Shown one piece after another: positions 21,008-36,068 of a stretch of 36,068 nt of DNA (position 1 is the stretch's first letter; each line of letters starts with the position of its first letter). The translations under genes were made by a program, and so were the position numbers. Origin of the DNA: Bacteroidota bacterium (lineage in GTDB: Bacteria > Bacteroidota > Bacteroidia > Flavobacteriales > Schleiferiaceae); the NCBI GenBank assembly GCA_003045825.1, contig PZPA01000006.1, positions 1-36,068 of the forward strand, given 5' to 3'. Under the pieces are notes generated by a model. The model was not told the DNA's origin. It searched no databases and saw only the letters and a program-made list of their open reading frames with translations.

Positions 21008-21036
21008 AAAAAGCCCGGCAAATGCCGGGCTTTTTT
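21008..21036. terminator. Intrinsic terminator
   Basis: aaaaAGCCCGGCA-aa-TGCCGGGCTtttttt: perfect GC-rich inverted repeat with flanking A and T tracts (likely bidirectional), 20 bp after the YqeY-like stop. Confidence 0.92.
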
Positions 21037-21068
21037 CGTTAAATTTAGCTCCAGCAAAACGCATCAGT

Positions 21069-22307
21069 GTGAGACATTCTTTTCTTTTGGTATTCAGCAT
21101 TTTAACGCTAAGCAGTGTTGCACAAGACCGTACTGTTCGTCTGATGACTTACAATCTTTTGAATTACCGCAACACCACATCGTATTGCACGGGTTCAAAC
21201 AACAGCTCCAGTAGCAAAGAAGGGCATTTGGAAACCATCATTGGTGAAATAGAGCCGCATGTCGTAGTGATGAATGAGATAGGAAGTAATCCAAACAATC
21301 TTACTTACCTTCTAAACAACGCATTTAATACGGGAACAACCACGCACTGGGCCATGGCAAACCATGTACACAACGGTTTTTCATCCTTAGTGAATGGTGT
21401 CGCGTACCGCAGCGATCTTTTAGGAATATCAAACCAATGGGCTATCACAAAGGATGCCGACAACAATTCTTTAGTTAGAGCTATAGATATTGTTCGTTTT
21501 TATTACAAGGACGCGTTGCTACAAGGCAATAGCGATACCGCTTCCTTCGTAGTTATCGGTGCACATTTTAAAGCAGGAAATACCTCTTCTGACGCTGCAG
21601 AACGCAACAAAGCGGCTACAGCAATCGTCGACTGGGTCGACGCGCACAACTTTGAGAACGTTTTCTTATTGGGCGATCTCAATACGTATTCCAGTAACGA
21701 AGCTTCTTTTCAAAGCTTGATTGGAGGGAATTCCTTTCGCTTTGAGGACCCCATAAACTCCAACGGAAATTGGCACAACAACAGCAGTTTTGCTTCCATA
21801 CATACGCAGAGTACACGGACTTCAGGGAATTGCCATTCGGGTGGTGGCCTAGACGATCGCTTTGACCACATTCTTTGTTCAGAGGCAGTGATTGAAGGCG
21901 ACGAGCAAATCACCTATGCACCGAATAGTTATTTCGCAGTCGGGAACGACGGTAATCACTTTAACAACGCCATCAACTCTGGCAACAACTACAGTGTAAG
22001 TAGCGCTGTATTAAGTGCGCTATATGCCTTGAGCGATCACTTACCAGTGATTTTAGACATTGAAATCGAAGGACAGCATTTGGCCATAGCATCGCACGAA
22101 GGGAATTGGACCCTACCGAACCCCATGCCCGTTGGTACGACGCTAACGCTACCGGAGCATAGTCGGTTGTACATTAGCAATCTGGCAGGGCAAAGAGTAT
22201 TCGAAACATCGGCAACCAGCGTCGAGATTCCACTACTACCTAAGGGAACCTACCTGCTTCGTTTAGAGACAATGAACGGTCACACAACGCGTAAAATTCT
22301 TTTTTAA
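21069..22307 (+). CDS. Secreted endonuclease/exonuclease/phosphatase (EEP, DNase I-like) protein with T9SS-like C-terminal domain
   Basis: Signal peptide; RLMTYNLLNYRN, VVVMNEIG, VIGAHFKAG, LLGDLNTYSS, DDRFDHILCS, LSDHLPVILDIEI; C-terminal LYISNLAGQRVFE...LPKGTYLLRLETMNGHTTRKILF. GTG start. Confidence 0.88.
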   Translation: MRHSFLLVFSILTLSSVAQDRTVRLMTYNLLNYRNTTSYCTGSNNSSSSKEGHLETIIGEIEPHVVVMNEIGSNPNNLTYLLNNAFNTGTTTHWAMANHVHNGFSSLVNGVAYRSDLLGISNQWAITKDADNNSLVRAIDIVRFYYKDALLQGNSDTASFVVIGAHFKAGNTSSDAAERNKAATAIVDWVDAHNFENVFLLGDLNTYSSNEASFQSLIGGNSFRFEDPINSNGNWHNNSSFASIHTQSTRTSGNCHSGGGLDDRFDHILCSEAVIEGDEQITYAPNSYFAVGNDGNHFNNAINSGNNYSVSSAVLSALYALSDHLPVILDIEIEGQHLAIASHEGNWTLPNPMPVGTTLTLPEHSRLYISNLAGQRVFETSATSVEIPLLPKGTYLLRLETMNGHTTRKILF

Positions 22308-24427
22308 TGCAGCACAGAATCCTCCTTCTTCTCGCTTTTTTGTGTAGCCTTTTTATGCAAGCGCAAAACTTTGAAGAGTTCCAAACAACACAAGCGAACA
22401 TTCGACTCTCCGCAACAAACGCAGGTACTTTTGGCAATGCTTTTAGAGGCTACAAAGACGGTTCCGGTACTCCATCATTAGAATATCCGGCTGGATCTGG
22501 GATTGAACATTTGTTTGAAGGCGGTATATGGATAGGGGGAACGTCTAATGGCGTGATTCGTGTGAGTACCTCAGCCTACGATTCTCCACAAGGATATGCG
22601 CCAGGCCGCGGTGGTTTCGAATTCAATCCAGTGCCTGGAATGCCGGTGAAAGAAATGAGCAGTCTAAAGACTTCGCCAAAGTTTAATTCCTCTGCGATTT
22701 CTCACCAAGATTTCATTGCAAATTTCTCTGATTCCACGTTGTTAGTACCGGGGACATCCATCCCTATCAACAACCACATCAACCCCATGGATATCGTCGC
22801 AGAAATGCGCCTTTTGAATTGGAACTACAGCTTTTCAGATTTCATGGCCATGTGCTCGTTGACCATTTACAACAGAGGAGACCAAACCTTTGATGATCTG
22901 TATATAGGCTTGTGGAACAACACGGTGGTTAGAAATATCAACATCACTCCCGCTGGAGCTGGCGGCGCCACCTTCTACACACAAGGCGGTAATGGATTTG
23001 TAGACAGTCTAAATCTAGCTTATTGTTACGATGCTACCGGTGATGAAGGATTTACGGACAGTTATGTGGGTCAAGTCTTTTTAGGCAGCGAAGACAAACA
23101 AGGCTTCCGTCATCCTAGAACCGATTCTAGTTTCAGAGTAAACTACAACGCATGGGTATTCAACAACAGCGGTCAGAGCACCTTCTTTTTCCCAACTACG
23201 GATCAGCAGCGCTATCAAAAAATGACAGACGGCTTTAACCACAATGCTTGCTGGACCAACCCTTCATCCCCCGGGTGCGTAAGTACCTTAGATGTGGATC
23301 TTCAAGACGAACTTAATAAGAGCGGGAACCGTTCTGACCTCATTTCAGCGGGTCCATTCAGCACTTTTGCACCGGGAGACACCATCAACATTGCCTTTGC
23401 TTTTGTCGTGGCTAAGAAGATGGAAGACGGCAACCCCAATGCGCAAAACAATGCAGTTCAGCGCGGAGGTCTTCTTAGCGCAGCGAATTGGGCGCAAACT
23501 ACCTACAACGGCGAAGACGGTAATTTCAATGGAATCTTAGATCCGGGAGAGGACAAAGATGGAGATGGAAGAATTACTCGTTTCATACTACCTACCCCGC
23601 CATCCATACCTTATTCAAGGGTGGAAGCAGGAGAGAATAGCGCAACTATTTATTGGGCCAATAATAGCGTTACAAGCGTAGACCCTATTTCTAAAAAACA
23701 AGATTTTGAAGGCTTCAACGTATACGCTACCTCAACGGGATTTGATGTTTTCGGCACCCCAAATCTCGCTGAAGATTTAAGTTTAGTTGCGTCCTTCGAT
23801 AGCATTGGAAACGACTACGGCATGAATAATGGCTTCGCTCCGGTAAAGCTCCTAACCCCAAAGGTATTTGAAAACGACACCGTAATTTACGACTACGCTT
23901 ACACGCTTTCTCCTTTACCGAATGGATGGCAGACAGCCATGGCTGTTACTGCTTTTGATAAGGGCGATCTAAATTCAGGACTTGAAAGTTTAGAAAGTTC
24001 AGCACTTGCCAACGTTACGCGTGTATTCCCAGGTAAAGAAGCTGCGGGTGAAGAAGATCGGCCTTATGCTTACCCCAATCCCTATTACCTTAGTGCAGGA
24101 TGGGAGGGACAGAGTAACTTCCAAGAGGAGAGTCGTAAGATCATTTTTGCCAATCTGCCTGCACATTGTCAAATCACTATTACGACGGCTGCAGGTGACT
24201 TGATCGACACCTTCGAGCATACGCCTAACTACAACGGCACTGATATCCGCTGGTTCAGAACCTTTGGATCTGAGAATCCTGATCAAAATACTTTTTCAGG
24301 CGGAGAACATGCCTGGGATTTATTATCAAAAGAAAGTCAAATCATCGCAAGAGGTACGTACCTCTTGCATGTACAAGATTTAGAAACTGGAAAACGAACT
24401 ACAGAACCCTTTATAATAGTTAAGTAA
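22307..24427 (+). CDS. Large secreted protein with EF-hand/dockerin-like loops and C-terminal FlgD/T9SS-like beta domain
   Basis: Signal peptide MQHRILLLLAFLCSLFMQAQ; GNFNGILDPGEDKDGDGRITRF; C-terminal YAYPNPYYLSAGW...ITTAAGDLIDTFEH...GTYLLHVQDLETGKRTTEPFIIVK. TAATG overlap with previous gene. Confidence 0.7.
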   Translation: MQHRILLLLAFLCSLFMQAQNFEEFQTTQANIRLSATNAGTFGNAFRGYKDGSGTPSLEYPAGSGIEHLFEGGIWIGGTSNGVIRVSTSAYDSPQGYAPGRGGFEFNPVPGMPVKEMSSLKTSPKFNSSAISHQDFIANFSDSTLLVPGTSIPINNHINPMDIVAEMRLLNWNYSFSDFMAMCSLTIYNRGDQTFDDLYIGLWNNTVVRNINITPAGAGGATFYTQGGNGFVDSLNLAYCYDATGDEGFTDSYVGQVFLGSEDKQGFRHPRTDSSFRVNYNAWVFNNSGQSTFFFPTTDQQRYQKMTDGFNHNACWTNPSSPGCVSTLDVDLQDELNKSGNRSDLISAGPFSTFAPGDTINIAFAFVVAKKMEDGNPNAQNNAVQRGGLLSAANWAQTTYNGEDGNFNGILDPGEDKDGDGRITRFILPTPPSIPYSRVEAGENSATIYWANNSVTSVDPISKKQDFEGFNVYATSTGFDVFGTPNLAEDLSLVASFDSIGNDYGMNNGFAPVKLLTPKVFENDTVIYDYAYTLSPLPNGWQTAMAVTAFDKGDLNSGLESLESSALANVTRVFPGKEAAGEEDRPYAYPNPYYLSAGWEGQSNFQEESRKIIFANLPAHCQITITTAAGDLIDTFEHTPNYNGTDIRWFRTFGSENPDQNTFSGGEHAWDLLSKESQIIARGTYLLHVQDLETGKRTTEPFIIVK

Positions 24428-26628
24428 TGAGAAAATATCTACTCACCCTTTTAGTTGCTGCATTCGCTTCAACTGCTTTTGGCCAATCCTACGTTAGTAT
24501 TAATGCCATCAATACCGTTTCCGCAACTGATCTAGCTGCTTGTAACGACACCTCGGCCTACCTTGGCCAGACCATCATCACACGTGGTGTTGTGGTTACC
24601 CCTGGTTGGGCAACCGAAGTTGCTTCCGGCTCCGTGACCGGTGGTCTTCGTCCGTTCATATTTATTCAAGATACTGCAGTTGGTGGCCAGAGTTCACCGT
24701 GGTCAGGAATCGAAGTGATGGGTGTTTACTCTGCGTCTAACGGATCGCTTCAAGTTCCCTCAACATTCACTCAGGTGCTTCCAGGAGATATCGTTGAGGT
24801 CAAAGGTTTGGTCGGTGAATACAACGGTTCAAACCAATTAAGTCTTGTCGATGCCAACAGCTTCAGCATCATATCAACTACCACTGATCCTGTGGTCAGC
24901 GACACCATTTCATTAGGCGACCTAAACGACAACCAGCAGGTGAACCAACTCACCACTGGAGAAAAATACGAAGGTTCTTTTGTAACGCTCGAAAACCTTA
25001 CCGTAACAACGGTCATCCAATTCTCCGGAAACCGCATCAGTTTCAATGTAGCCGATGCCAATGGAAACGTGATCAACGTGAGTGACCGATTCTTAGCTCA
25101 AAAACTCTCATCGTACAGTACAGTGAATCCGAACTCACCGCAGTCGCAGGGTTCCTTTGTACCTCCAGTCCCTGGAACATTCCTAAACTCATTGAGTGGT
25201 GTAGTTCGTCACGACGCCAACGGTTGTACCGGTGATAACGGACGTGGCTATGAAATCAATCCATTTGACAGCACACATTATGATGTAGGCTATGCGCCGC
25301 CATACATCGCAAACTTCGAGCGTGATCCATCCGTACCTACTTCTAATCAAGACGTTGAAATTATCTGTAACATCACCGATTACGACGGTACTGTCGATAG
25401 CGTTTGTATCGCTTGGACTGCAGATAATGCAGTGAGTATTGCGAACATGCCTAAATATACCTTCCCTTTGAGTGCAGGTACAACGGATGAATACGAATAC
25501 GAAATTCCTGCACAAACCGACGGCAGCACCGTACGTTACTACATTTACGCTGCGGATAACGACGGGAACGAAAGTTGGTATCCAACAAAACCGACGACGC
25601 AAGCCTCACCCAATATTGAATTCTACACGGTCCGTGATAATGGAATGCTCGTCTACGACATTCAATACACCATGGATCCATTTGGAGACAGTCCTTTAGA
25701 AACGCAAGAGGTGACCGTCAAAGGGGTAGTAACCGCTTCTACTAAAATTGGCGATTTAGGGTACCTCTACATTCAAGATGAAACCGGTTCTGCATGGAGT
25801 GGGATTTGGTGTGTGGGTATTGGACTGAACCAATTTTACCGCAACGAAGAAGTTGAAGTAACTGGCGTGGTAGAAGAATACTACGGGATGACCCGCCTCA
25901 ATGTTACTTCTGCAAACAAAACAGGCAACTTAGGTAACGTAAGCGCTACCGTGCTTGATCCTTCCGATTCTGCATCCTATGCAAACTTTGGCTGGGAGCC
26001 GTACGAGAGTATGTTTATCCGCTACGAGCAGCCGAACGGTAAACTACACATTAGCCAAACGAATTTAGGTTTTGGTGATTTTGCTGTAAGCAGCTCTAAT
26101 ACTGCCGCAGTAAGCCATAGTGGTCGCGTTCTTGCAGGACGACAGAGCACTACCGCTTACAGTTCTCTAGACGTACAATTGGTCACCGATACTTCGTACA
26201 GCAGTTTAGACGGTGAAATGAACGTAACACCGATCGTTGTAAGCGATACCATGACTTTTGATGCCATTGAAGGCATCTTGTTCTACGGTTTTAGCAACTA
26301 CCGACTTTTACCTCGTAATAATAATGACTTCATCGGTGCAAACGTGACCCTTGATAGCATTACGGTGGCTAATTCACCGATCAGCGTTGTAGAATTGGAC
26401 CAAATGAATGTTGCCTATTACCCGAACCCTGTAAATAATCAGTTGACCGTTAAAGCACCTATGGATGGTGTATTAGCGATTTACAATAGCGCGGGAAAAC
26501 GAGTGTTAGGTGAGCGTTTCTCGCAAGAGTCAAATGTAGATGTAAGTGCATTACCTAATGGTTTGTACTTACTAAGTCTCGAAGGATCAACAGGCCAATT
26601 CTTTACTCGAATTTCTGTACAACACTAA
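24427..26628 (+). CDS. Secreted T9SS protein with two YhcR/ExeM-type OB-fold segments and an Ig-like segment
   Basis: TIITRGVVVTPG...RPFIFIQDTAVGGQSSPWSGIEVMG...LPGDIVEVKGLVGEYNGSNQLSLVD and VTVKGVVTASTKIGDLGYLYIQDETGSAWSGIWCVG...YRNEEVEVTGVVEEYYGMTRLNV; C-terminal YYPNPVNNQLTVKAP...NSAGKRVLGE...LPNGLYLLSLEG. Confidence 0.8.
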   Translation: MRKYLLTLLVAAFASTAFGQSYVSINAINTVSATDLAACNDTSAYLGQTIITRGVVVTPGWATEVASGSVTGGLRPFIFIQDTAVGGQSSPWSGIEVMGVYSASNGSLQVPSTFTQVLPGDIVEVKGLVGEYNGSNQLSLVDANSFSIISTTTDPVVSDTISLGDLNDNQQVNQLTTGEKYEGSFVTLENLTVTTVIQFSGNRISFNVADANGNVINVSDRFLAQKLSSYSTVNPNSPQSQGSFVPPVPGTFLNSLSGVVRHDANGCTGDNGRGYEINPFDSTHYDVGYAPPYIANFERDPSVPTSNQDVEIICNITDYDGTVDSVCIAWTADNAVSIANMPKYTFPLSAGTTDEYEYEIPAQTDGSTVRYYIYAADNDGNESWYPTKPTTQASPNIEFYTVRDNGMLVYDIQYTMDPFGDSPLETQEVTVKGVVTASTKIGDLGYLYIQDETGSAWSGIWCVGIGLNQFYRNEEVEVTGVVEEYYGMTRLNVTSANKTGNLGNVSATVLDPSDSASYANFGWEPYESMFIRYEQPNGKLHISQTNLGFGDFAVSSSNTAAVSHSGRVLAGRQSTTAYSSLDVQLVTDTSYSSLDGEMNVTPIVVSDTMTFDAIEGILFYGFSNYRLLPRNNNDFIGANVTLDSITVANSPISVVELDQMNVAYYPNPVNNQLTVKAPMDGVLAIYNSAGKRVLGERFSQESNVDVSALPNGLYLLSLEGSTGQFFTRISVQH

Positions 26629-26631
26629 TTC

Positions 26632-28020
26632 ATGAAATACCTACTGTACTTCGCGTTAGCGGTACTTGTCTTTAGTTGCCGCGGGACGGACAATCCCGTG
26701 GCAAACAAGGCACCTGAAACACTGCTTCAAGTAGACAGCATTGTGCGTTCAGGTGACCTGCGATTGGGAACAAACGTTACCCTGCATTGGTACGGTATGG
26801 ATGTAGACGGCTTTATTAAAGGATACCACATCACTGTGGATGAAAGCACAAGCTTTACCGAACGTACAGACAGCACCTTCAGCTTTAGTATTGAAGCGGG
26901 TCAAGATACCACTGACATTCTACTCACGGTGGCGGCAGAAGATAACGAAGGACTGATCGACCCTTCCCCTGCTACGCTTATTGTACCTATAAAGAATGCT
27001 GCACCTGAGGTAGCCATTGATCCGGACGGACTGTTATCAGATAGTGCATTCATTGTAGCTACGGTGGATTGGCGGGCAACGGATGCCGATGGAGATGAAA
27101 CCATTGAAAGTGTAGAGTTCAAATTGAATACCGGAAATTGGGTGGAAATAGGCTCCTCCGTTTCTTTATTATCCTTTGCAACGGATCCTCAAGGCAACGT
27201 CGCTTATTACAAAAACGCGGGCTTCATTGATTCCATACCTGGTGCCGATTTGCAGGGTGAAAATTTCATTTTCCTCCGTGCTAGAGACCGCGCAGGGGTT
27301 TACTCCGCTGTGGATACTACGGCAGGATTCTATTGGAAAGCTGCAAATAGTGCTACCCTCGTTATAAACGGACAACCGGAATACATCGGTAGTACGTACA
27401 AAGCGTGGATGGACAGTGCAAATGTTCTTTACGACTACTTACAAATGGATGCGGTCAGCGGTGCAGGAATTCCTGCTTATTGGGACCCCACCTTTGAAAT
27501 CATCATGTCGAGCTATTCTAAAATTGCACTCTTCACAGATGCGACAGTATTCCCTACTAAATCTGGTGACGACTACCTCCTGAACATCCTTGCCTTAAGC
27601 ACACAAAAGTTTCTACAACAAGGCGGAAAGTTGTTTACTGCTTCCCAATTTTCATCAAATATGGCAGGCGGTGCCTTTTTAGACATCTTTCCTGTTGAAA
27701 GTTTAGTTTTCAGCAGCGGTCAAGCTCGATTAACCAATGACAGTACCCTAGCTCCTCTACAACCCGGGTTTCCATCGCTCCAGCCTCAAAATATTGTCTT
27801 AGGTATTACACCCATTGTCCCCTCTGCAGATGCAACGGCGCTCTATGACGGGCAGATTACAAAAATTGCAGGATGGAACGGTGCGACCACGATGGGCGCG
27901 ACTCGGACACAAAACGGCAGTATTAATCAGGTGTTTGTGGCTTTGCCATTGCACGTTTTTAATAGACCCACCAACCACGGAGGCCTACTCCTAGACCATG
28001 TATTCAATGCGGTATTCTAA
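26632..28020 (+). CDS. Lipoprotein with Fn3/Ig-like N-terminal part and possible GATase1-like C-terminal fold
   Basis: Lipobox MKYLLYFALAVLVFSC; two beta-sandwich-like segments; C-terminal SATLVINGQ...SYSKIALFTDAT...KFLQQGGKLFTASQFSS (fold assignment is inference). Confidence 0.6.
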   Translation: MKYLLYFALAVLVFSCRGTDNPVANKAPETLLQVDSIVRSGDLRLGTNVTLHWYGMDVDGFIKGYHITVDESTSFTERTDSTFSFSIEAGQDTTDILLTVAAEDNEGLIDPSPATLIVPIKNAAPEVAIDPDGLLSDSAFIVATVDWRATDADGDETIESVEFKLNTGNWVEIGSSVSLLSFATDPQGNVAYYKNAGFIDSIPGADLQGENFIFLRARDRAGVYSAVDTTAGFYWKAANSATLVINGQPEYIGSTYKAWMDSANVLYDYLQMDAVSGAGIPAYWDPTFEIIMSSYSKIALFTDATVFPTKSGDDYLLNILALSTQKFLQQGGKLFTASQFSSNMAGGAFLDIFPVESLVFSSGQARLTNDSTLAPLQPGFPSLQPQNIVLGITPIVPSADATALYDGQITKIAGWNGATTMGATRTQNGSINQVFVALPLHVFNRPTNHGGLLLDHVFNAVF

Positions 28021-30805
28021 AGCCCTATTTACCCTAACCTTCATCTTGTGCCAATTCCTAGTTGCAGCACAGGAAAAAGGCGTCTTGCGTGGGCAAGCCC
28101 TCGAGAAAGGTACTAAAGAACCGCTGCCTAATGCCGCAGTAACTATTGTGGGTACGTTCTATCAAACGCTCACAGATTTTGATGGAAACTTCGAAATACG
28201 CGACATTAAACCCGGAACCTACAGCGTCAAATTTCAGTTCATAGGCTACCAACCTATCCTCTTCAATGATATTAAAATCACGAGTAAAAAACCGGTGACT
28301 ATAACCGCAGAATTGCAGGAGCAGAGCGAAATGCTCAATGCGGTAACGGTGGTCGGACGCAAGAACCAAGTTGATCTTGAAAAGGCGTCTTCTGCGATTA
28401 CTCTTACCGGCAATGAAATCGGAAAACTGGTTGCGAAAGGCGTTGAGGATGTACTCGCCCAACAAGCCGGAGTACAGCGCACTACTGATGGACTACAAAT
28501 CCGTGGCGCACGCGTGTACGAAACGGAATACCTCATCGATGGAATTTCAGCACAAGATCCACTGGCTGGAACTGGTGGTGGTGTTAGTGTAAGTTCTTCT
28601 TCAGTAGGCTCCCTTAATTTAATGACCGGAGGGGCAAGTGCAGAATACGGCGGAGGCTCTGCCGGGATTATTAATACGCGCATCAAAGAAGGCGGTGAAA
28701 AATTCAGTTGGGGTTTAAATTATCAAACGGACCAAATCGTAGATGCTACCTCTTTCAATACGGACGAAATAGAGGTAACCATAAGCACCCCCGTTCCTTT
28801 TACCAAGAAAAAACTTCGCCTCTTCACTACAGCTAGAGGCCAATGGACGGACCACTATTTTGGAGCGACGGCAACCCAATTAAAATCGAGTTTATTCCCG
28901 GATAACCCAGAGTTTTGGGCACCGCGTCAAAGCAATGATTATACCCACACCGTGAAGCTGAGTTATGCGGACAAAACCGTTGGAAAGTTTACGTTAACCA
29001 ACAGCCACAGCCTTAAGGTGAATCAAAATTCTCGAACGCTTCAAATCGTTGGATTCGATGCCCTACTCACACCCGGATTTCAATACGATAGAAGCAACAA
29101 CCTAGACAACGCCACGACTTATACCCACCACAGTAACCTTACCGTGCTCGGCTGGAATAAACGAATCAATGCAAAAACAGGCTTAACCATAAGTGCAGGT
29201 AGACTCTTCACCAACCTAAGAGCAGATGCTAACGGACGCCCATTCCGCGCTGAAACAGTCGATCAGATTTATGACGAAGCATACATCTTCACCGGTGACC
29301 TGACCGTTTTTAACCCTAATGATCCGTATGGGAATTACTATTTAATCCCAGGCAATGGACTTATTAATAATGGCGGCGTCACTCCTATCTGGCACGACCA
29401 CTACGCTGCGGAAAATACGTTTAAAGGAAAATTGACCTTTCAACCCAATGCCATACACACCATTAGCGGTGGCCTAGAACACGCTTTGACAGAATACCAA
29501 TGGGTAGATGTCTACCGCCCTTGGGTAGGCGCACCCATCGTTTTGAACGACAGTACCACAACTCCCTCTGTATCTATTGGATCCAGCAACGATATTTGGA
29601 AAGTAAGTCCACAGAAAGGTGGGCTCTTCGCTCAAGACCGTATTGAATACAAAGGCGTAAAAGCCACCTTAGGGATGCGTTTCAACTACTGGGCACCAGG
29701 TAAATTCGCAGACAACGCGGTGGCCGATTCGACCTCGCCCGTCCTCCCCGCCATTCGAGATGCATACAACCAGAATTCTTTTAATGCTGGAGGATTGAGC
29801 TGGAAAGTCCGTCTTCTTCCTCGATTGAATGTGAGCTTTCCCGTCACGGAAAACAATGTACTTTACTTTAACTATGGGCACAGCATGCGTATGCCGCATC
29901 CCCGCTTCATGTATGCCGGACTTGACCCGCAGTACCAGGACCGTAGTTTCTTGTCTTCGCTAGGTAACCCAAACCTCAACCCTGAGGTGAACATCTCATA
30001 CGAAGTGGGATACAAGACGTTAGTCGGAAGCCGGATCGGTTGGACCATCAATGCGTTCAACAACAACCGCTTCGATTACATCGTTTCGCGTCGTGTAATT
30101 ACGACAGATGCAACCGGTCGTCCGGTCACTAAAACCATGTACATCAATCAAGACTATGCTAAAATAATTGGTGTAGAAACGCAGTTGAATGCACGACTAA
30201 ACAATTCATTTACGTCCTTCTTTAACGGATCATACCAACAAGCAAGAGGAAAATCAAACAGTGCCCGCGAGAGTGCCTTACAGATTGCACAAACAGGTGA
30301 GGTACCGCTGACTCAAGAGCAATTCTTAGCCTGGGATCGACCCTGGAAATTCAATGCCGGGGTCAGCTTCCAAAACGACAGCAGTAAATTCCGTGCTTCA
30401 CTCAATGCACAATACACGTCCGGTTACAGATATACCCCCCAAATCCTCGAAGGATACAACGACCTGGGTCGTCCGCAATACCGTGTAGATAACGCAAACT
30501 ATTTGAGAGAACGCGGCGCCTACTGGTTTGGGATTAATGGAAAAGCATCCTACGCTCTAGTGAAATTTGGAACGGGCGGCATTCTATTAAACGTTGAGGT
30601 TATGAATATTACCGGACGTAGAAATGCACAATTGGTCAACCCTATTACCGGTCGCGCATACGAATACGGAGACGATGTCCCGTTGACTTGGCGTGATCCT
30701 CGCCCAGAATTCAATGGGCCTCAAGAAACCGGAACAGATCCAAGAAACCCGGCACGCTACTCAGCACCGACTCAACTATTAGCTGGAATTCAAATCAAAT
30801 GGTAA
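28007..30805 (+). CDS. TonB-dependent outer-membrane receptor with carboxypeptidase-regulatory-like N-terminal domain
   Basis: GVLRGQALEKGTKEPLPNAAVTIVGTFYQTLTDFDGNFEIRDIKPGTYSVKFQFIGYQP; plug GVEDVLAQQAGVQRTTDGLQIRGARVYETEYLIDG; beta-barrel ending in aromatic W. Alternative start 27998. Confidence 0.9.
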   Translation: MRYSKALFTLTFILCQFLVAAQEKGVLRGQALEKGTKEPLPNAAVTIVGTFYQTLTDFDGNFEIRDIKPGTYSVKFQFIGYQPILFNDIKITSKKPVTITAELQEQSEMLNAVTVVGRKNQVDLEKASSAITLTGNEIGKLVAKGVEDVLAQQAGVQRTTDGLQIRGARVYETEYLIDGISAQDPLAGTGGGVSVSSSSVGSLNLMTGGASAEYGGGSAGIINTRIKEGGEKFSWGLNYQTDQIVDATSFNTDEIEVTISTPVPFTKKKLRLFTTARGQWTDHYFGATATQLKSSLFPDNPEFWAPRQSNDYTHTVKLSYADKTVGKFTLTNSHSLKVNQNSRTLQIVGFDALLTPGFQYDRSNNLDNATTYTHHSNLTVLGWNKRINAKTGLTISAGRLFTNLRADANGRPFRAETVDQIYDEAYIFTGDLTVFNPNDPYGNYYLIPGNGLINNGGVTPIWHDHYAAENTFKGKLTFQPNAIHTISGGLEHALTEYQWVDVYRPWVGAPIVLNDSTTTPSVSIGSSNDIWKVSPQKGGLFAQDRIEYKGVKATLGMRFNYWAPGKFADNAVADSTSPVLPAIRDAYNQNSFNAGGLSWKVRLLPRLNVSFPVTENNVLYFNYGHSMRMPHPRFMYAGLDPQYQDRSFLSSLGNPNLNPEVNISYEVGYKTLVGSRIGWTINAFNNNRFDYIVSRRVITTDATGRPVTKTMYINQDYAKIIGVETQLNARLNNSFTSFFNGSYQQARGKSNSARESALQIAQTGEVPLTQEQFLAWDRPWKFNAGVSFQNDSSKFRASLNAQYTSGYRYTPQILEGYNDLGRPQYRVDNANYLRERGAYWFGINGKASYALVKFGTGGILLNVEVMNITGRRNAQLVNPITGRAYEYGDDVPLTWRDPRPEFNGPQETGTDPRNPARYSAPTQLLAGIQIKW

Positions 30806-31776
30806 GACGTCAATTTTACATACCGCTGGTCATTGGATTACTATTGAGTTTTGCTTCAAATGCCCAATTATTGCCCTCTTACGGTGAGGAACGTGCAGGA
30901 CTCAGTGCCTTCACCTTCTTAAAACTTCCTATTGACCCGGCGAGCACAGGCGTCGGAGGTGCAAGTTTAGCGATGACCGAACACAGCTTCGGAGCCCTCA
31001 TTAATCCTGCACTCATAAGTGGCGGCAACCAACAAGGTGTTTTTTCTGCAAACCGTGCTTTAGGAGGCGGTATCAATCACGATTTTGTTGCGCTGACGAA
31101 AGCACGAAAAAACGGTCAGCACATCGCGCTAACCCTCAATAGTCTTAGTACGGGTTCCATCATCGAACGCACCGTTTGGCAACCGGAAGGAACCGGCGCA
31201 ACGACTTCTGCCACATTGGCTTCTGTAGGGTTAGGCATTAGCCAGGCCTTCAGCGAATACTTCCATGCGGGGGTTCAGCTTAAATACGGGCTGGAGCAAC
31301 TAGGTGTCTACCGTGCACATAACGTTTACCTAGATTTAGGATTCCTATATAAACTGGATATCGCTGACCTCCAGTTCGCAGCTGCACTAACCAACTTCGG
31401 ACCCAATACACCGATAAGCAATATGCCAATAGGTCAAGAATCTGCGTTGGCGGCTTCACCGCAAATGTTCTCCATGGGCATACAATGGACGGCATGGGAA
31501 AATGACGACCACAGCCTTACCCCGAGCTTACAACTCAACCACCCTACAGACAACGCTGAATTCTACGCGGGTGGACTAAAGTACCAATGGCGTTCGCAAT
31601 TGTGGGGTGCTGTTGGTTACCAAATTGGCAGTCAAAAAGCTTTGCCGTGGATGGGCTTCGGAATGAAAACGGTCCTAAAAGGTTGGCCAGTAGAATGGGG
31701 TGTTGGGGCACAGCCTACACCATACAACCAATACCAAGGAACCATAGGAATAAAAATTAAACCACTCACATGGTAA
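30799..31776 (+). CDS. PorV/PorQ-like outer-membrane protein
   Basis: Signal peptide; AFTFLKLPIDPASTGVGGASLAMTEHSFGALINPA is typical of PorV/PorQ proteins; beta-barrel ending KIKPLTW. Confidence 0.8.
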   Translation: MVRRQFYIPLVIGLLLSFASNAQLLPSYGEERAGLSAFTFLKLPIDPASTGVGGASLAMTEHSFGALINPALISGGNQQGVFSANRALGGGINHDFVALTKARKNGQHIALTLNSLSTGSIIERTVWQPEGTGATTSATLASVGLGISQAFSEYFHAGVQLKYGLEQLGVYRAHNVYLDLGFLYKLDIADLQFAAALTNFGPNTPISNMPIGQESALAASPQMFSMGIQWTAWENDDHSLTPSLQLNHPTDNAEFYAGGLKYQWRSQLWGAVGYQIGSQKALPWMGFGMKTVLKGWPVEWGVGAQPTPYNQYQGTIGIKIKPLTW

Positions 31777-32954
31777 GAATCTTAGGCATACTCTCCGTCC
31801 TTTTCATCGGTGTCTTTCTAAGCAGTTGCGACAACTACTTTGGTGAGCGAACTAATCTAGATTTTATTGAAATCCCTACTTACGATGTCAGGGAGATCAG
31901 TTACGTACCCATCGCACCAAACATTCAAGACGCCATTGCACCCGTAGATGTTTATATCGGATATGATGAATTCATTTATGTTGTAGACAGCGCTCAAGAC
32001 CTCATTCTACGCTACGATATTGCCCTTAATTTACAAGGAAGTATCTATGTTCCTGGCGTTCGAAAGGTAACACAGACCCGAAGCTTTGATCTTCTCGCCA
32101 TAGGCACCTACGACACGACCATCACTGGGGTTGATTACAGCCTAACTGCGCTTTATGAGATTGAAATGGTCGGTAACGATAATGTCCTATCAATGCAAGG
32201 TGCCACGGCAGAAGCCGTTATTGTCCACCCCTTTTATTTTAAGAATAGTTTCTCCTCATCTGATGCCAAGGTGAAGTTTACGGATGTTGCAATCATTGGT
32301 TCCAACATTCAACTAGAAAACAACAGCTATTACTTAAGTCGTACGGGTACAAGCAGCAACAATGCAGGATTCGGTCCAGATAACGCGGTGCTTAAATTCA
32401 CAAAAGATCACCAGTGGATTAGTGCTTTACCTATTACTGCAACAGGCGCTTTGTACAACGACTATTTTAAAAATCCACTTTCACTACAAGGATTTACACA
32501 GGCCCCGCAGCTTACTGCGACCAACAGTCCAGACTTTTGGGTACTGAATCAAGATGAGGATCAGGAAATCCAGGTGCAACACATCCAGTTTACTGAAGGG
32601 CCGTTCGGGGCGCTTTACCAACCCATCTTTTACAGCACTCTCGATCCGGCAGCAAAACGCTATTTACAAACACCAAAGCGATTTCTCGACCCTGTTGATT
32701 TATGTTTAGCAGGCGACGGTTCAAGGTTTTTGTTTGTCGCCGACGCTGGTGTAGACAGTGTGTACCAGTTTACCTCTTCCGGTTTGGAAGGTGTGCCACC
32801 ACCACCAGCTTCGGCAGCTGAGTTTAATGCTCTTGCCTCATTAGGCGGATTTGGAAAGGTCAGTGCCATTGGTTACTACGACAAGATTTTATATGTAGCT
32901 GATTCTAAAAATGGTACAGTGCAGAGGTTTAAACTAACTCTTGATTTTGACTAA
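31770..32954 (+). CDS. Lipoprotein, beta-propeller/NHL-like
   Basis: Lipobox MVRILGILSVLFIGVFLSSC; propeller-like strands VDVYIGYDEFIYVVDSAQDLILRYD, FLFVADAGVDSVYQFTSSG, ILYVADSKNGTVQRFKL. Confidence 0.7.
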   Translation: MVRILGILSVLFIGVFLSSCDNYFGERTNLDFIEIPTYDVREISYVPIAPNIQDAIAPVDVYIGYDEFIYVVDSAQDLILRYDIALNLQGSIYVPGVRKVTQTRSFDLLAIGTYDTTITGVDYSLTALYEIEMVGNDNVLSMQGATAEAVIVHPFYFKNSFSSSDAKVKFTDVAIIGSNIQLENNSYYLSRTGTSSNNAGFGPDNAVLKFTKDHQWISALPITATGALYNDYFKNPLSLQGFTQAPQLTATNSPDFWVLNQDEDQEIQVQHIQFTEGPFGALYQPIFYSTLDPAAKRYLQTPKRFLDPVDLCLAGDGSRFLFVADAGVDSVYQFTSSGLEGVPPPPASAAEFNALASLGGFGKVSAIGYYDKILYVADSKNGTVQRFKLTLDFD

Positions 32955-33033
32955 CTATTAGCATTCAAATAATGCTCAGAATATTCGTATATTTCAAACT
33001 TAATTTTACACATCAATAATCATTGAACAAACT

Positions 33034-36000
33034 ATGAAAAAGTATTTATCCATAGTTCTTGTATGCCTTTCCTATTTTGGATTTGCTCAAACAAACTATG
33101 TCGTCACATTCAAAGTGAACGCAGCAAACATCACCGTAGGTTCTAACGGAATTTACTTAGGTGGTGGTGTCATCGGCGGAGCGAACGCCGTCCAATTAAC
33201 CGATGCAGATGGAAACGGTGTTTATGAAGGTACTGACACCTTGAGTGGTGCCGGTGGCGGTAATTTCATCTTCCTGAATTCTCCTACTTGGAATGGCGAT
33301 TGGGGAACAAAAGAAAATCTTGCAGGCTTGGCATGTGCAGATGCTAACAATTATAACGACCGTATACTCCCGAGTTTTACTCAAGATACGACGTTGATGT
33401 TCTGCTACGGTACCTGTTCTACAGATACACTCTGTACAACAACGTATACCGCAACCTCATGTGGTGACTTGTTCTTCTCAGAATATGCAGAAGGCTCTTC
33501 AAACAATAAATACTTTGAAATTTATAATCCGACCGCTAGTGCGATTTCTTTAAGTGGGTACACCGTTTACTTGAGTGGTAATGGCGGGTCTTACACAAAT
33601 ACGTTCACATCTAGTGCTTCAATTGCATCTGGGGACGTATACATGATTTCAACGAACCAGTTAGATAGTGCAACCCAAACATTAGCAGATACCGCAATGG
33701 GCTATCCTTCTGTAGCGCACTTCAACGGTGACGATGCATTAATTCTCGTTAACGGAACAGATACTATTGATGTGATTGGTGTTCCTGGTGTTGATCCAGG
33801 TTCGTCTTGGACAGTAGGTACCGGTTCTACTGCTAACCATACGCTGGTTCGTAAGGCAACTGTAGACATGGGTTCTACGGACTGGACTACAGGTGCAGGA
33901 GAATGGGATGTTTACGCCAGTAACACATGGACTTACGCGGGCTCAAATTCAAGCAATTGTATTGTGACGCCTAAAAATGTGACGTTCCAAGTAGATATGA
34001 GCAATGTATCTGCTTCCTTCACTAACGTGTATGTGAGCGGTACAGTGAATAACTGGAGTGGTAACTCAAACCAATTAACTGATGCCGATGGTGATGGTGT
34101 GTATGAAGGTACATTATCCCTCATGCCAGGTTCTTACGAATACAAATTCACGTATGACAACTGGACCGGTCAAGAAACTCTCGACCCTGTAGCCGATGCC
34201 ACATGTACTTTAACTACTGGCGCCTTTACCAACCGCTATTCTACTATTGGAAATGCAGATACAACTTTGCCTGTGGTATGTTGGGAATCTTGTAATACTT
34301 GTGGCTATGTTGCCCCTTGTTCAGAATTATACTTCAGCGAATATGCAGAAGGCTCTTCAAACAATAAATACTTTGAAATTTATAATCCGACCGCTAGTGC
34401 GATTTCTTTAAGTGGGTACACCGTTTACTTGAGTGGTAATGGCGGGTCTTACACAAATACGTTCACATCTAGTGCTTCAATTGCATCTGGGGACGTATAC
34501 ATGATTTCAACGAACCAGTTAGATAGTGCAACCCAAACATTAGCAGATACCGCAATGGGCTATCCTTCTGTAGCGCACTTCAACGGTGACGATGCATTAA
34601 TTCTCGTTAACGGAACAGATACTATTGATGTGATTGGTGTTCCTGGTGTTGATCCAGGTTCGTCTTGGACAGTAGGTACCGGTTCTACTGCTAACCATAC
34701 GCTGGTTCGCAAGCATGCCGTTTCCGGGGGTTCAACAGACTGGACTACTGGGGTATTAGAATGGGATGTTTACGCTAGCAATACATGGTCTTACGCCGGT
34801 GAGCACTCCAGCACATGTATTATAACTCCTGTAGATGTGACTTTCCAAGTAGACATGAATTATGTAACTGCATCGTACACTAACGTTTATGTGAGCGGTA
34901 CCGTAAATAACTGGAGTGGTAACTCAAACCAATTAACTGATGCCGATGGTGATGGCGTGTATGAAGGTACATTATCCCTCATGCCAGGTTCTTACGAATA
35001 CAAATTCACGTATGACAACTGGACCGGTCAAGAAACTCTGGATCCTGTAGCCGATGCCACTTGTACTTTGACCACCGGGACGTTTACAAACCGTTACTCT
35101 ACGATCAGCAATGCAGATACTACGTTACCTGTGGTATGTTGGGAAGAGTGTGCGGCATGTGTAGGACCAACAGACTTCGCCGTAACTTTTATGGTGAATA
35201 CAGCCAATATCACTGTTGGCACAAATGGTCTCTACCTTGGTGGTGGTGTTATTGGAGGTGCTAATGCCGTTCAATTGCTAGATCCTGACGGTGATGGTAT
35301 TTACGTAGGTACTGATACCTTGAACGGTTCAAATGGAGGGAATTTCATTTTCCTCAATAGCCCTGCGAATGCTTCAGACTGGAACGCGAAAGAAAACCTA
35401 GCTGGTTTGTCTTGTGCTGATCCGTCAAACTACAACGATAGAATTCTTCCAACCTTTACTCAGGACACAACATTGATGTTCTGCTACGGCACCTGTTCTA
35501 CAGATACGTCGTGTACAGTTACCTCTACGAATCCAGATGTGACCTTCCGTGTGGACATGAGCAATGTTTCTGCGTCATTCACTAATGTTTATGTGAGTGG
35601 AACGCTGAACAGCTGGAGCGGTAATGCAAACCAATTGACTGATCCTGATGGTGACGGTGTTTACGAAGCAGATATTAGTCTTGCCGCTGGTAATTATGAA
35701 TTTAAGTTCACCTACGATAACTGGGTTGGTCAAGAGTCGTTAGATGCAACTCTAGATAGCGCATGTACGCTAACCACAGGAGCGTTTACAAACCGTTACA
35801 TCACCATTGGTGCATCTGATACCACCCTCCCAGTATTCTGTTGGGAAGAGTGTACTTCTTGTGCTACGACGACGACGGGTTGTACCGAATTGTTCTTCAG
35901 CGAATACGCAGAAGGCTCTTCTAACAATAAATACATTGAGATCTACAACCCAACGGCAAATGCTATTTCATTAAGCTCATACACCGTATACCAAAGTGGT

Positions 36001-36068
36001 AATGGTGGTTCTTACACGAATACGTTCACAACGAATGCTACTATCGCTTCTGGTGGCGTCTATATGAT
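33034..36068 (+). CDS. Giant modular surface/secreted protein (3' end outside window): alternating E-set/starch-binding-like modules and lamin-tail domains (LTD)
   Basis: My translation from ATG 33034 (MKKYLSIVLVCLSYFGFAQTNYVVTFKVNAANITVG...) found no in-frame stop up to the window end. Module order A1-L1-B1-L2-B2-A2-B3-L3. Absent from the ORF track, presumably because it has no stop. Confidence 0.87.
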   Translation, partial: MKKYLSIVLVCLSYFGFAQTNYVVTFKVNAANITVGSNGIYLGGGVIGGANAVQLTDADGNGVYEGTDTLSGAGGGNFIFLNSPTWNGDWGTKENLAGLACADANNYNDRILPSFTQDTTLMFCYGTCSTDTLCTTTYTATSCGDLFFSEYAEGSSNNKYFEIYNPTASAISLSGYTVYLSGNGGSYTNTFTSSASIASGDVYMISTNQLDSATQTLADTAMGYPSVAHFNGDDALILVNGTDTIDVIGVPGVDPGSSWTVGTGSTANHTLVRKATVDMGSTDWTTGAGEWDVYASNTWTYAGSNSSNCIVTPKNVTFQVDMSNVSASFTNVYVSGTVNNWSGNSNQLTDADGDGVYEGTLSLMPGSYEYKFTYDNWTGQETLDPVADATCTLTTGAFTNRYSTIGNADTTLPVVCWESCNTCGYVAPCSELYFSEYAEGSSNNKYFEIYNPTASAISLSGYTVYLSGNGGSYTNTFTSSASIASGDVYMISTNQLDSATQTLADTAMGYPSVAHFNGDDALILVNGTDTIDVIGVPGVDPGSSWTVGTGSTANHTLVRKHAVSGGSTDWTTGVLEWDVYASNTWSYAGEHSSTCIITPVDVTFQVDMNYVTASYTNVYVSGTVNNWSGNSNQLTDADGDGVYEGTLSLMPGSYEYKFTYDNWTGQETLDPVADATCTLTTGTFTNRYSTISNADTTLPVVCWEECAACVGPTDFAVTFMVNTANITVGTNGLYLGGGVIGGANAVQLLDPDGDGIYVGTDTLNGSNGGNFIFLNSPANASDWNAKENLAGLSCADPSNYNDRILPTFTQDTTLMFCYGTCSTDTSCTVTSTNPDVTFRVDMSNVSASFTNVYVSGTLNSWSGNANQLTDPDGDGVYEADISLAAGNYEFKFTYDNWVGQESLDATLDSACTLTTGAFTNRYITIGASDTTLPVFCWEECTSCATTTTGCTELFFSEYAEGSSNNKYIEIYNPTANAISLSSYTVYQSGNGGSYTNTFTTNATIASGGVYM
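33100..33420 (+). repeat. Module A1 (E-set/CBM-like); related copy A2 at about 35179-35499
   Basis: VTFKVNAANITVGSNGIYLGGGVIGGANAVQLTDADGNGVYEGTDTLSG...LMFCYGTCSTDTLC versus VTFMVNTANITVGTNGLYLGGGVIGGANAVQLLDPDGDGIYVGTDTLNG...LMFCYGTCSTDTSC (offset 2079 bp). Confidence 0.85.
33481..33851 (+). repeat. Direct repeat copy 1 (LTD-encoding), 371 bp identical to 34339-34709
   Basis: Line-by-line comparison shows identity at constant offset 858 bp (286 codons). Confidence 0.95.
34048..34181 (+). repeat. Direct repeat in B module copy 1; copy 2 at 34906-35039 with one observed mismatch
   Basis: aataactggagtggtaactcaaaccaattaactgatgccgatgg...ggtcaagaaactct at both sites, offset 858 bp; mismatch at 34098 (t/c). 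Confidence 0.92.
34339..34709 (+). repeat. Direct repeat copy 2 (LTD-encoding), 371 bp identical to 33481-33851
   Basis: Same comparison, offset 858 bp. Confidence 0.95.
34906..35039 (+). repeat. Direct repeat in B module copy 2 (see 34048-34181)
   Basis: As above. Confidence 0.92.
35539..35862 (+). repeat. Module B3, diverged copy of B1 (from 33979) and B2 (from 34837)
   Basis: VTFRVDMSNVSASFTNVYVSGTLNSWSGNANQLTDPDGDGVYEADISLAAGNYEFKFTYDNWVGQESLD...CWEECTSC versus VTFQVDMSNVSASFTNVYVSGTVNNWSGNSNQLTDADGDGVYEGTLSL...CWESCNTC. Confidence 0.85.

Follow-up and report, generated by a model that had tools for sequence, protein, structure and literature searches.

How DNA crosses the outer membrane of Bacteroidota is an open question, and a screen in R. 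anatipestifer has revealed outer-membrane transformation genes without homology to well-known machinery. The DNA stretch analyzed here (the window, 36,068 nucleotides at the start of a 47.6-kb contig from a 1.83-Mb Schleiferiaceae genome) carries an operon at 21069-32954 that combines a predicted secreted nuclease, a putative DNA binder and a TonB-dependent receptor. As judged from sequence comparisons, the products of the operon probably form a complex at the cell surface that captures and cuts extracellular nucleic acid and imports it across the outer membrane. The operon is a compact and widespread candidate, from which one would expect a DNA importer that is powered by TonB and whose nucleases can be exchanged, and it provides a context for protein families that have no annotation (P2, P4, P7 and DUF5689). 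A literature search, with most subscription journals and bioRxiv outside its scope, found no published description of this operon.

The operon and its products

Bases 1-20988 of the window are occupied by a cell-wall and division cluster with yqeY as its last gene, and the terminator that follows sets the operon apart from this cluster (Table 1). Genes P1 to P7 share a strand, either overlap slightly or are separated by only a few bases, and are therefore likely to form one transcription unit; a promoter scan performed no better than on shuffled sequences. P8 starts 79 bases downstream of P7.

Table 1. Features of the window and of related loci
Feature	Coordinates	Strand	Evidence or remarks
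Intrinsic terminator after yqeY	21010..21037	+	AAAAAGCCCGGC-AAAT-GCCGGGCTTTTTT; fold -23.6 kcal/mol, z -7.2
P1, predicted secreted EEP-fold nuclease, T9SS sorting tail, GTG start	21069..22307	+	profile matches, invariant catalytic positions
P2, 706-aa secreted protein, beta-sandwich domains, sorting-tail-like C-terminus	22307..24427	+	no Pfam family
P3, double OB-fold (ExeM/YhcR/DUF5689-like) protein, T9SS tail, putative DNA binder	24427..26628	+	sequence profiles
P4, surface or outer-membrane lipoprotein, no Pfam family	26632..28020	+	lipobox FSC, Cys16 invariant, conserved order
P5, TonB-dependent receptor of its own lineage (CarboxypepD_reg, plug, beta-barrel)	27998..30805	+	profile match
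P6, PorV/PorQ-family outer-membrane barrel	30799..31776	+	NF033709; profile matches solved PorV
P7, lipoprotein	31770..32954	+	lipobox SSC, Cys20 invariant, conserved order
P8, 1791-aa LTD protein, peripheral	33034..36068, continues to C17:38409	+	LTD x4, DUF5689 x2, CBM48-like domains, T9SS tail
Cupredoxin-LTD proteins at the P8 position	L046:14718-18620, L050:14970-18854, L047:14669-18010, L251:7720-10992, L282:15177-17819
Sister receptor + PF01663 loci	L342:6703-13340, L343:7321-11438, L344:8839-12830

The first gene product, P1, matches Exo_endo_phos slightly below the Pfam cut-off (E=5e-5, 23.6 bits) and the ExeM_NucH model with 33 bits, while its T9SS tail scores 30.6 bits; its best model matches are the nuclease families ExeM/NucH and MnuA. 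The catalytic positions N29, E70, H166, G202-D203-x-N205 and D323-H324 (motifs GDxN and SDH) are invariant among 17 relatives. EEP enzymes as a group also include members with phospholipid or sugar phosphate substrates.

P3 matches the N-terminal (OB) region of ExeM_NucH over two stretches (64 bits, E=1e-17) and the PF01336 OB-fold with 22 bits, and carries a T9SS tail of 43 bits. Among its relatives, PF01336 is matched in 6 of 24 (best 7e-7) and DUF5689 in 3 of 24. The P3 profile also matches the N-terminus of the solved OB-EEP protein 9sf8/9sf9 (E=3e-9) and, modestly, DUF5689 (probability 83%, E=8e-6); proteins at the P3 position in other families exceed the DUF5689 cut-off (38-41 bits), whereas the P3 of the window does not. 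On these profile matches, the OB parts of P3 are related to those of the R. anatipestifer type at the level of DUF5689/ExeM OB folds. The predicted structure of P3 (pLDDT 81) gave only generic beta-sandwich/FN3 matches in whole-chain fold searches (query TM <0.3), so the OB assignment rests on the sequence profiles. One weak match in this search was the baculovirus single-strand DNA-binding protein LEF-3 (TM 0.10-0.18), which by itself is not evidence for the role that such a resemblance may suggest. In some distant families (L102, L119 and L137) the protein at the P3 position is longer and combines a chitobiase C-terminal-like domain with DUF5689. An OB-EEP fusion considered for the P3-position proteins of ~820-900 aa was rejected, Pfam finding no EEP domain in them.

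P5 matches the TonB receptor model with 84.8 bits. P6 belongs to the PorV/PorQ family NF033709 (92.7 bits, above the cut-off of 90), its profile matches solved PorV with E=3e-26, and it possibly acts as an anchor or shuttle for T9SS-exported parts. P7 probably adopts a beta-propeller fold. The predicted structure of P2 (pLDDT 84) yielded only generic beta-sandwich/FN3 matches in a whole-chain fold search, with query TM <0.3.

These assignments bear out most of what a sequence-only reading of the window had proposed. All genes that it named are present where it placed them, including the EEP nuclease with intact catalytic motifs, the two YhcR/ExeM-type OB-fold segments and, between the nuclease and the LTD protein, the TonB receptor, the PorV/PorQ-like protein and two lipoproteins. 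It omitted P2 from its list of parts. The structure prediction that it had proposed for P3 was uninformative as to fold, the OB domains being recovered by profile. For the LTD protein, at least three LTDs had been claimed, which is correct, since three lie inside the window and four in the complete gene (1791 aa, 183 bits); its casting as a constant part of the system does not hold, as P8 occurs in a few Schleiferiaceae genera only.

Within P8, the stretches 33455-33754 and 34313-34612 are 96% identical over 300 bases at a distance of 858 bases and represent a recent internal duplication. In other Schleiferiaceae the P8 position is taken by a variable protein, which combines an N-terminal cupredoxin domain with one or two LTDs and, in the majority of cases, with OB/DUF5689 domains. 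The genome that contains the window encodes another LTD protein of 1090 aa (G000:C79:1099-4371, L009), and the other LTD genes of this genome (on C60 and C79) have no adjoining nuclease, as judged from ORF starts only.

Conservation of the block and exchange of its nuclease

The order P2-P3-P4-P5-P6-P7 is complete in 26 of the 29 loci from Schleiferiaceae, and across 28 fetched family loci the order P1 to P7 is fixed wherever the contig permits, with P1 missing in one genus. P3 is single-copy in nearly all family genomes sampled. Mean column identities within the family are highest for P5 (73%) and P2 (72%), followed by P7 (63%), P3 and P6 (60% each), P4 (54%) and P1 (51%); the receptor and P2 thus form the constrained core.

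Outside the order Flavobacteriales, in families from other classes of the phylum, the same six-gene order is complete in 26 of 40 loci, several of the other 14 being interrupted by contig ends or ORF-calling errors. A P2 profile gives strong matches in 89 of 297 phylum genomes, all of which except the window's own genome lie outside its class. A search of a named collection recovered the order in 49/80 loci and added Phaeocystidibacter, Thermaurantimonas, Owenweeksia, Vicingaceae and further Flavobacteriales. In Bacteroidia, loci L266-L279 keep P2 to P5 without P6 and P7 and mostly without an EEP or PLD neighbor, which represents a minimal block. The genes are therefore found together, in the same order, well outside the family, as the sequence-only reading would require; its general proposal of a multi-gene, T9SS-exported system for binding, cutting and uptake with its own receptor gains from this co-occurrence, whereas its two further elements, a split ExeM and a constant LTD part, are not supported.

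The least constant part is the nuclease, whereas the OB protein, P2 and the receptor stay. Of the 83 Flavobacteriales loci that could be scored, 63 have an EEP gene immediately upstream of P2. These counts use an EEP profile built from the catalytic part only, a version with sorting tails having drifted and flagged every OB protein. In distant loci, EEP or PLD adjoins the block in 12 of 35 cases (10 of 25 families), and the other 23 have neither directly beside it. Slots adjacent to the block contain EEP or PLD more often (12/69) than those further out (4/155; Fisher p=2e-4). The EEP gene is found at the far end of the block in seven loci of distant families (L100, L104, L106, L109, L113, L116 and L121), while a T9SS-tailed PLD-type protein takes this place in L122, L123 and L126; L131 has both, and in L117 a PLD gene lies one position further on. 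PLDc_2 scores at the block range from 79 to 142 bits. Endonuclease I occurs near the block in L286 and L290 (Endonuclease_1, 111-113 bits). Most of these swapped-in nucleases (EEP, PLDc_2 and Endonuclease_1) carry T9SS tails. The three folds are mutually unrelated, and their common feature is a nucleic acid substrate. PLD matches in L058, L059, L233 and L234 were discarded, because their N-terminus and motif look like polyphosphate kinase.

Proposed function and possible fate of the imported material

The gene content and order of the operon, its co-conservation, export signals, intact EEP motifs and repeated nuclease swaps suggest a division of labor among its products, in which the steps beyond gene content and export signals are those that we infer. 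P1, P3 and probably P2 would leave the cell through the T9SS and stay attached to its surface by way of the P6 barrel together with the lipoproteins P4 and P7. Binding of DNA may then fall to P3, joined by P8 in genomes that encode it; P1 would nick or cut this DNA, and P5 would pull the product into the periplasm with TonB energy. The genome encodes ComEC, DprA and the T9SS protein SprA; since ComEC and DprA are present, recombination of the imported DNA is possible. Recombination through ComEC/DprA and nutrition appear about equally probable as its fate. In its most specific and more tentative form, the proposal is that the operon could represent a second, independently evolved TonB-receptor DNA importer, spread over several classes, that has an exchangeable cutter, builds its surface complex from P2, the PorV/Q-like barrel and the two lipoproteins, and serves transformation.

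The main rival concerns this fate. DNA might be degraded at the surface and its nucleotides or short oligonucleotides imported by the receptor as a source of P, N or C, without recombination; for the substrate this is a sub-case of the importer reading, and for the fate it is a competing account that we regard as quite conceivable, if somewhat short of probable. ExeM/Xds-type enzymes are known as extracellular DNases, the operon is kept in streamlined marine genomes of 1.6-1.8 Mb, and a sister lineage of the R. anatipestifer-type receptor adjoins a nucleotide pyrophosphatase. In addition, the EndA1 and EndA2 proteins of F. johnsoniae are induced by phosphate depletion (PMC8115612). Against scavenging, transformation depends on the most similar locus for which genetic data exist, and it demands long intact DNA (PMC8459023). 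Moreover, the operon contains no phosphatase or 5'-nucleotidase, and its nuclease is the component most readily varied. Either outcome would be informative, pointing to genetic exchange among bacteria of the sea and the soil or to the recycling of dissolved DNA as phosphorus.

It is unlikely that the operon is instead an accessory T9SS or biofilm-matrix module, in which P6, P4 and P7 build a surface layer, P1 and P3 bind the DNA of the matrix or break it down, and P5 serves as a structural plug instead of an importer. The PorV/Q-like P6 and the T9SS-tailed products agree with such a role, and biofilm DNA is a target of ExeM and Xds; however, P5 has both a plug and a carboxypeptidase-like domain, and its strong sequence constraint, among the highest in the operon, is what a functioning transporter would show. 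Import of a different polymer containing phosphate or sugar, or of a glycolipid, with the EEP protein as its phosphodiesterase and the OB folds as oligosaccharide binders, is improbable. OB folds are capable of binding oligosaccharides, lipids can serve as EEP substrates and P8 has CBM48-like domains; however, the PLD and Endonuclease I proteins that replace the EEP at this place have nucleic acid, rather than sugar or lipid, as their common substrate, the families that P1 matches best are nucleases, and the operon has no glycoside hydrolase.

Comparison with known systems

Like the PorV and PorQ proteins of the T9SS, P6 is a member of their common family, but it scores below the equivalog cut-offs of both and is dedicated to this operon. 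With SusCD-type loci (PULs) the operon shares a TonB receptor, surface lipoproteins and a secreted degrading enzyme. In contrast to them, it has a PorV/Q-like barrel and an OB protein in place of SusD; P5 scores 64 bits where the SusC model requires 368, and neither P4 nor P7 matches SusD. The LTD+fn3+Endonuclease I proteins EndA1 and EndA2 of F. johnsoniae are likewise surface nucleases with LTD, and Endonuclease I adjoins loci related to ours; they differ in being phosphate-induced orphan genes without a receptor operon (PMC8115612).

The ExeM/NucH nucleases (NF033681, NF033680) contain the same LTD, OB and EEP modules. The sequence-only reading had accordingly proposed an ExeM split over separate genes, which finds no support as an origin: P1 (33 bits) and P3 (64 bits, in its OB part) fall far below the 300-bit cut-off, there is no sign of gene fission, and the modules have been assembled in many ways. 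OB and EEP domains are encoded by separate genes in the window and in all loci of its family, with a receptor and a barrel in addition. A split ExeM describes the list of parts, but the data do not show it as their history.

The closest parallel is the transformation locus of R. anatipestifer, where deletion of either RA0C_RS04915, a carboxypeptidase-domain TonB-receptor-like barrel, or RA0C_RS04920, a DUF5689 protein, abolishes natural transformation (PMC8459023), and where mutation of tonBA reduces transformation while causing no iron defect (PMC8383284). Both loci combine a surface OB/DUF5689 protein and a carboxypeptidase-domain TonB receptor in one operon, although in the window P4 lies between the two. 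Flavobacteriaceae- and Weeksellaceae-like genomes (family names inferred) have the R. anatipestifer-type pair with a divergent EEP gene (Exo_endo_phos_3) next door. In other Flavobacteriales families, a PLD nuclease occurs together with an LTD protein and with a receptor whose full-length match (E=1e-107) places it in the same lineage, DUF5689 being recognized in part. In other Bacteroidia families, the R. anatipestifer-type receptor lies beside a DUF5689 protein in 10 of 13 cases and beside EEP, PLD or Endonuclease I in 9 of 13. Two receptor lineages have thus collected the same modules (OB, LTD and nuclease), and among the arguments from sequence alone this one speaks most strongly for nucleic acid as the substrate of both.

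A placement of P5 in the RA0C_RS04915 lineage was rejected. The two match over the N-terminal 275 columns only (A8 vs A18, E=1.7e-24), and a sister receptor lineage without OB, LTD or EEP/PLD neighbors, used as a control, scores better (E=2e-32), although it is not a clean unrelated control because some of its members lie beside a nucleotide pyrophosphatase. In other classes, this sister lineage adjoins a type I phosphodiesterase/nucleotide pyrophosphatase (PF01663, 320-331 bits), and the two possibly form a nucleotide-uptake pair.

Strong matches to the P2 block (89 genomes) and to the R. anatipestifer-type receptor (50 genomes, at a threshold of 590 bits chosen after seeing the scores) do not overlap in any of the 297 genomes, where 15 were expected. 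This exclusion fits functional equivalence of the two locus types but is confounded by class-level ancestry, and since it follows class boundaries, shared ancestry explains part of it. The loci differ in receptor lineage, in the additional P2, P4, P6 and P7 of the window, and in the EEP gene, which here lies inside the operon rather than divergent and belongs to another Pfam subfamily. DUF1343, needed in R. anatipestifer, was not found in the window's own genome. Because its receptor is not specifically related, the operon is best viewed as a system that may work like the R. anatipestifer-type locus rather than as a member of that type.
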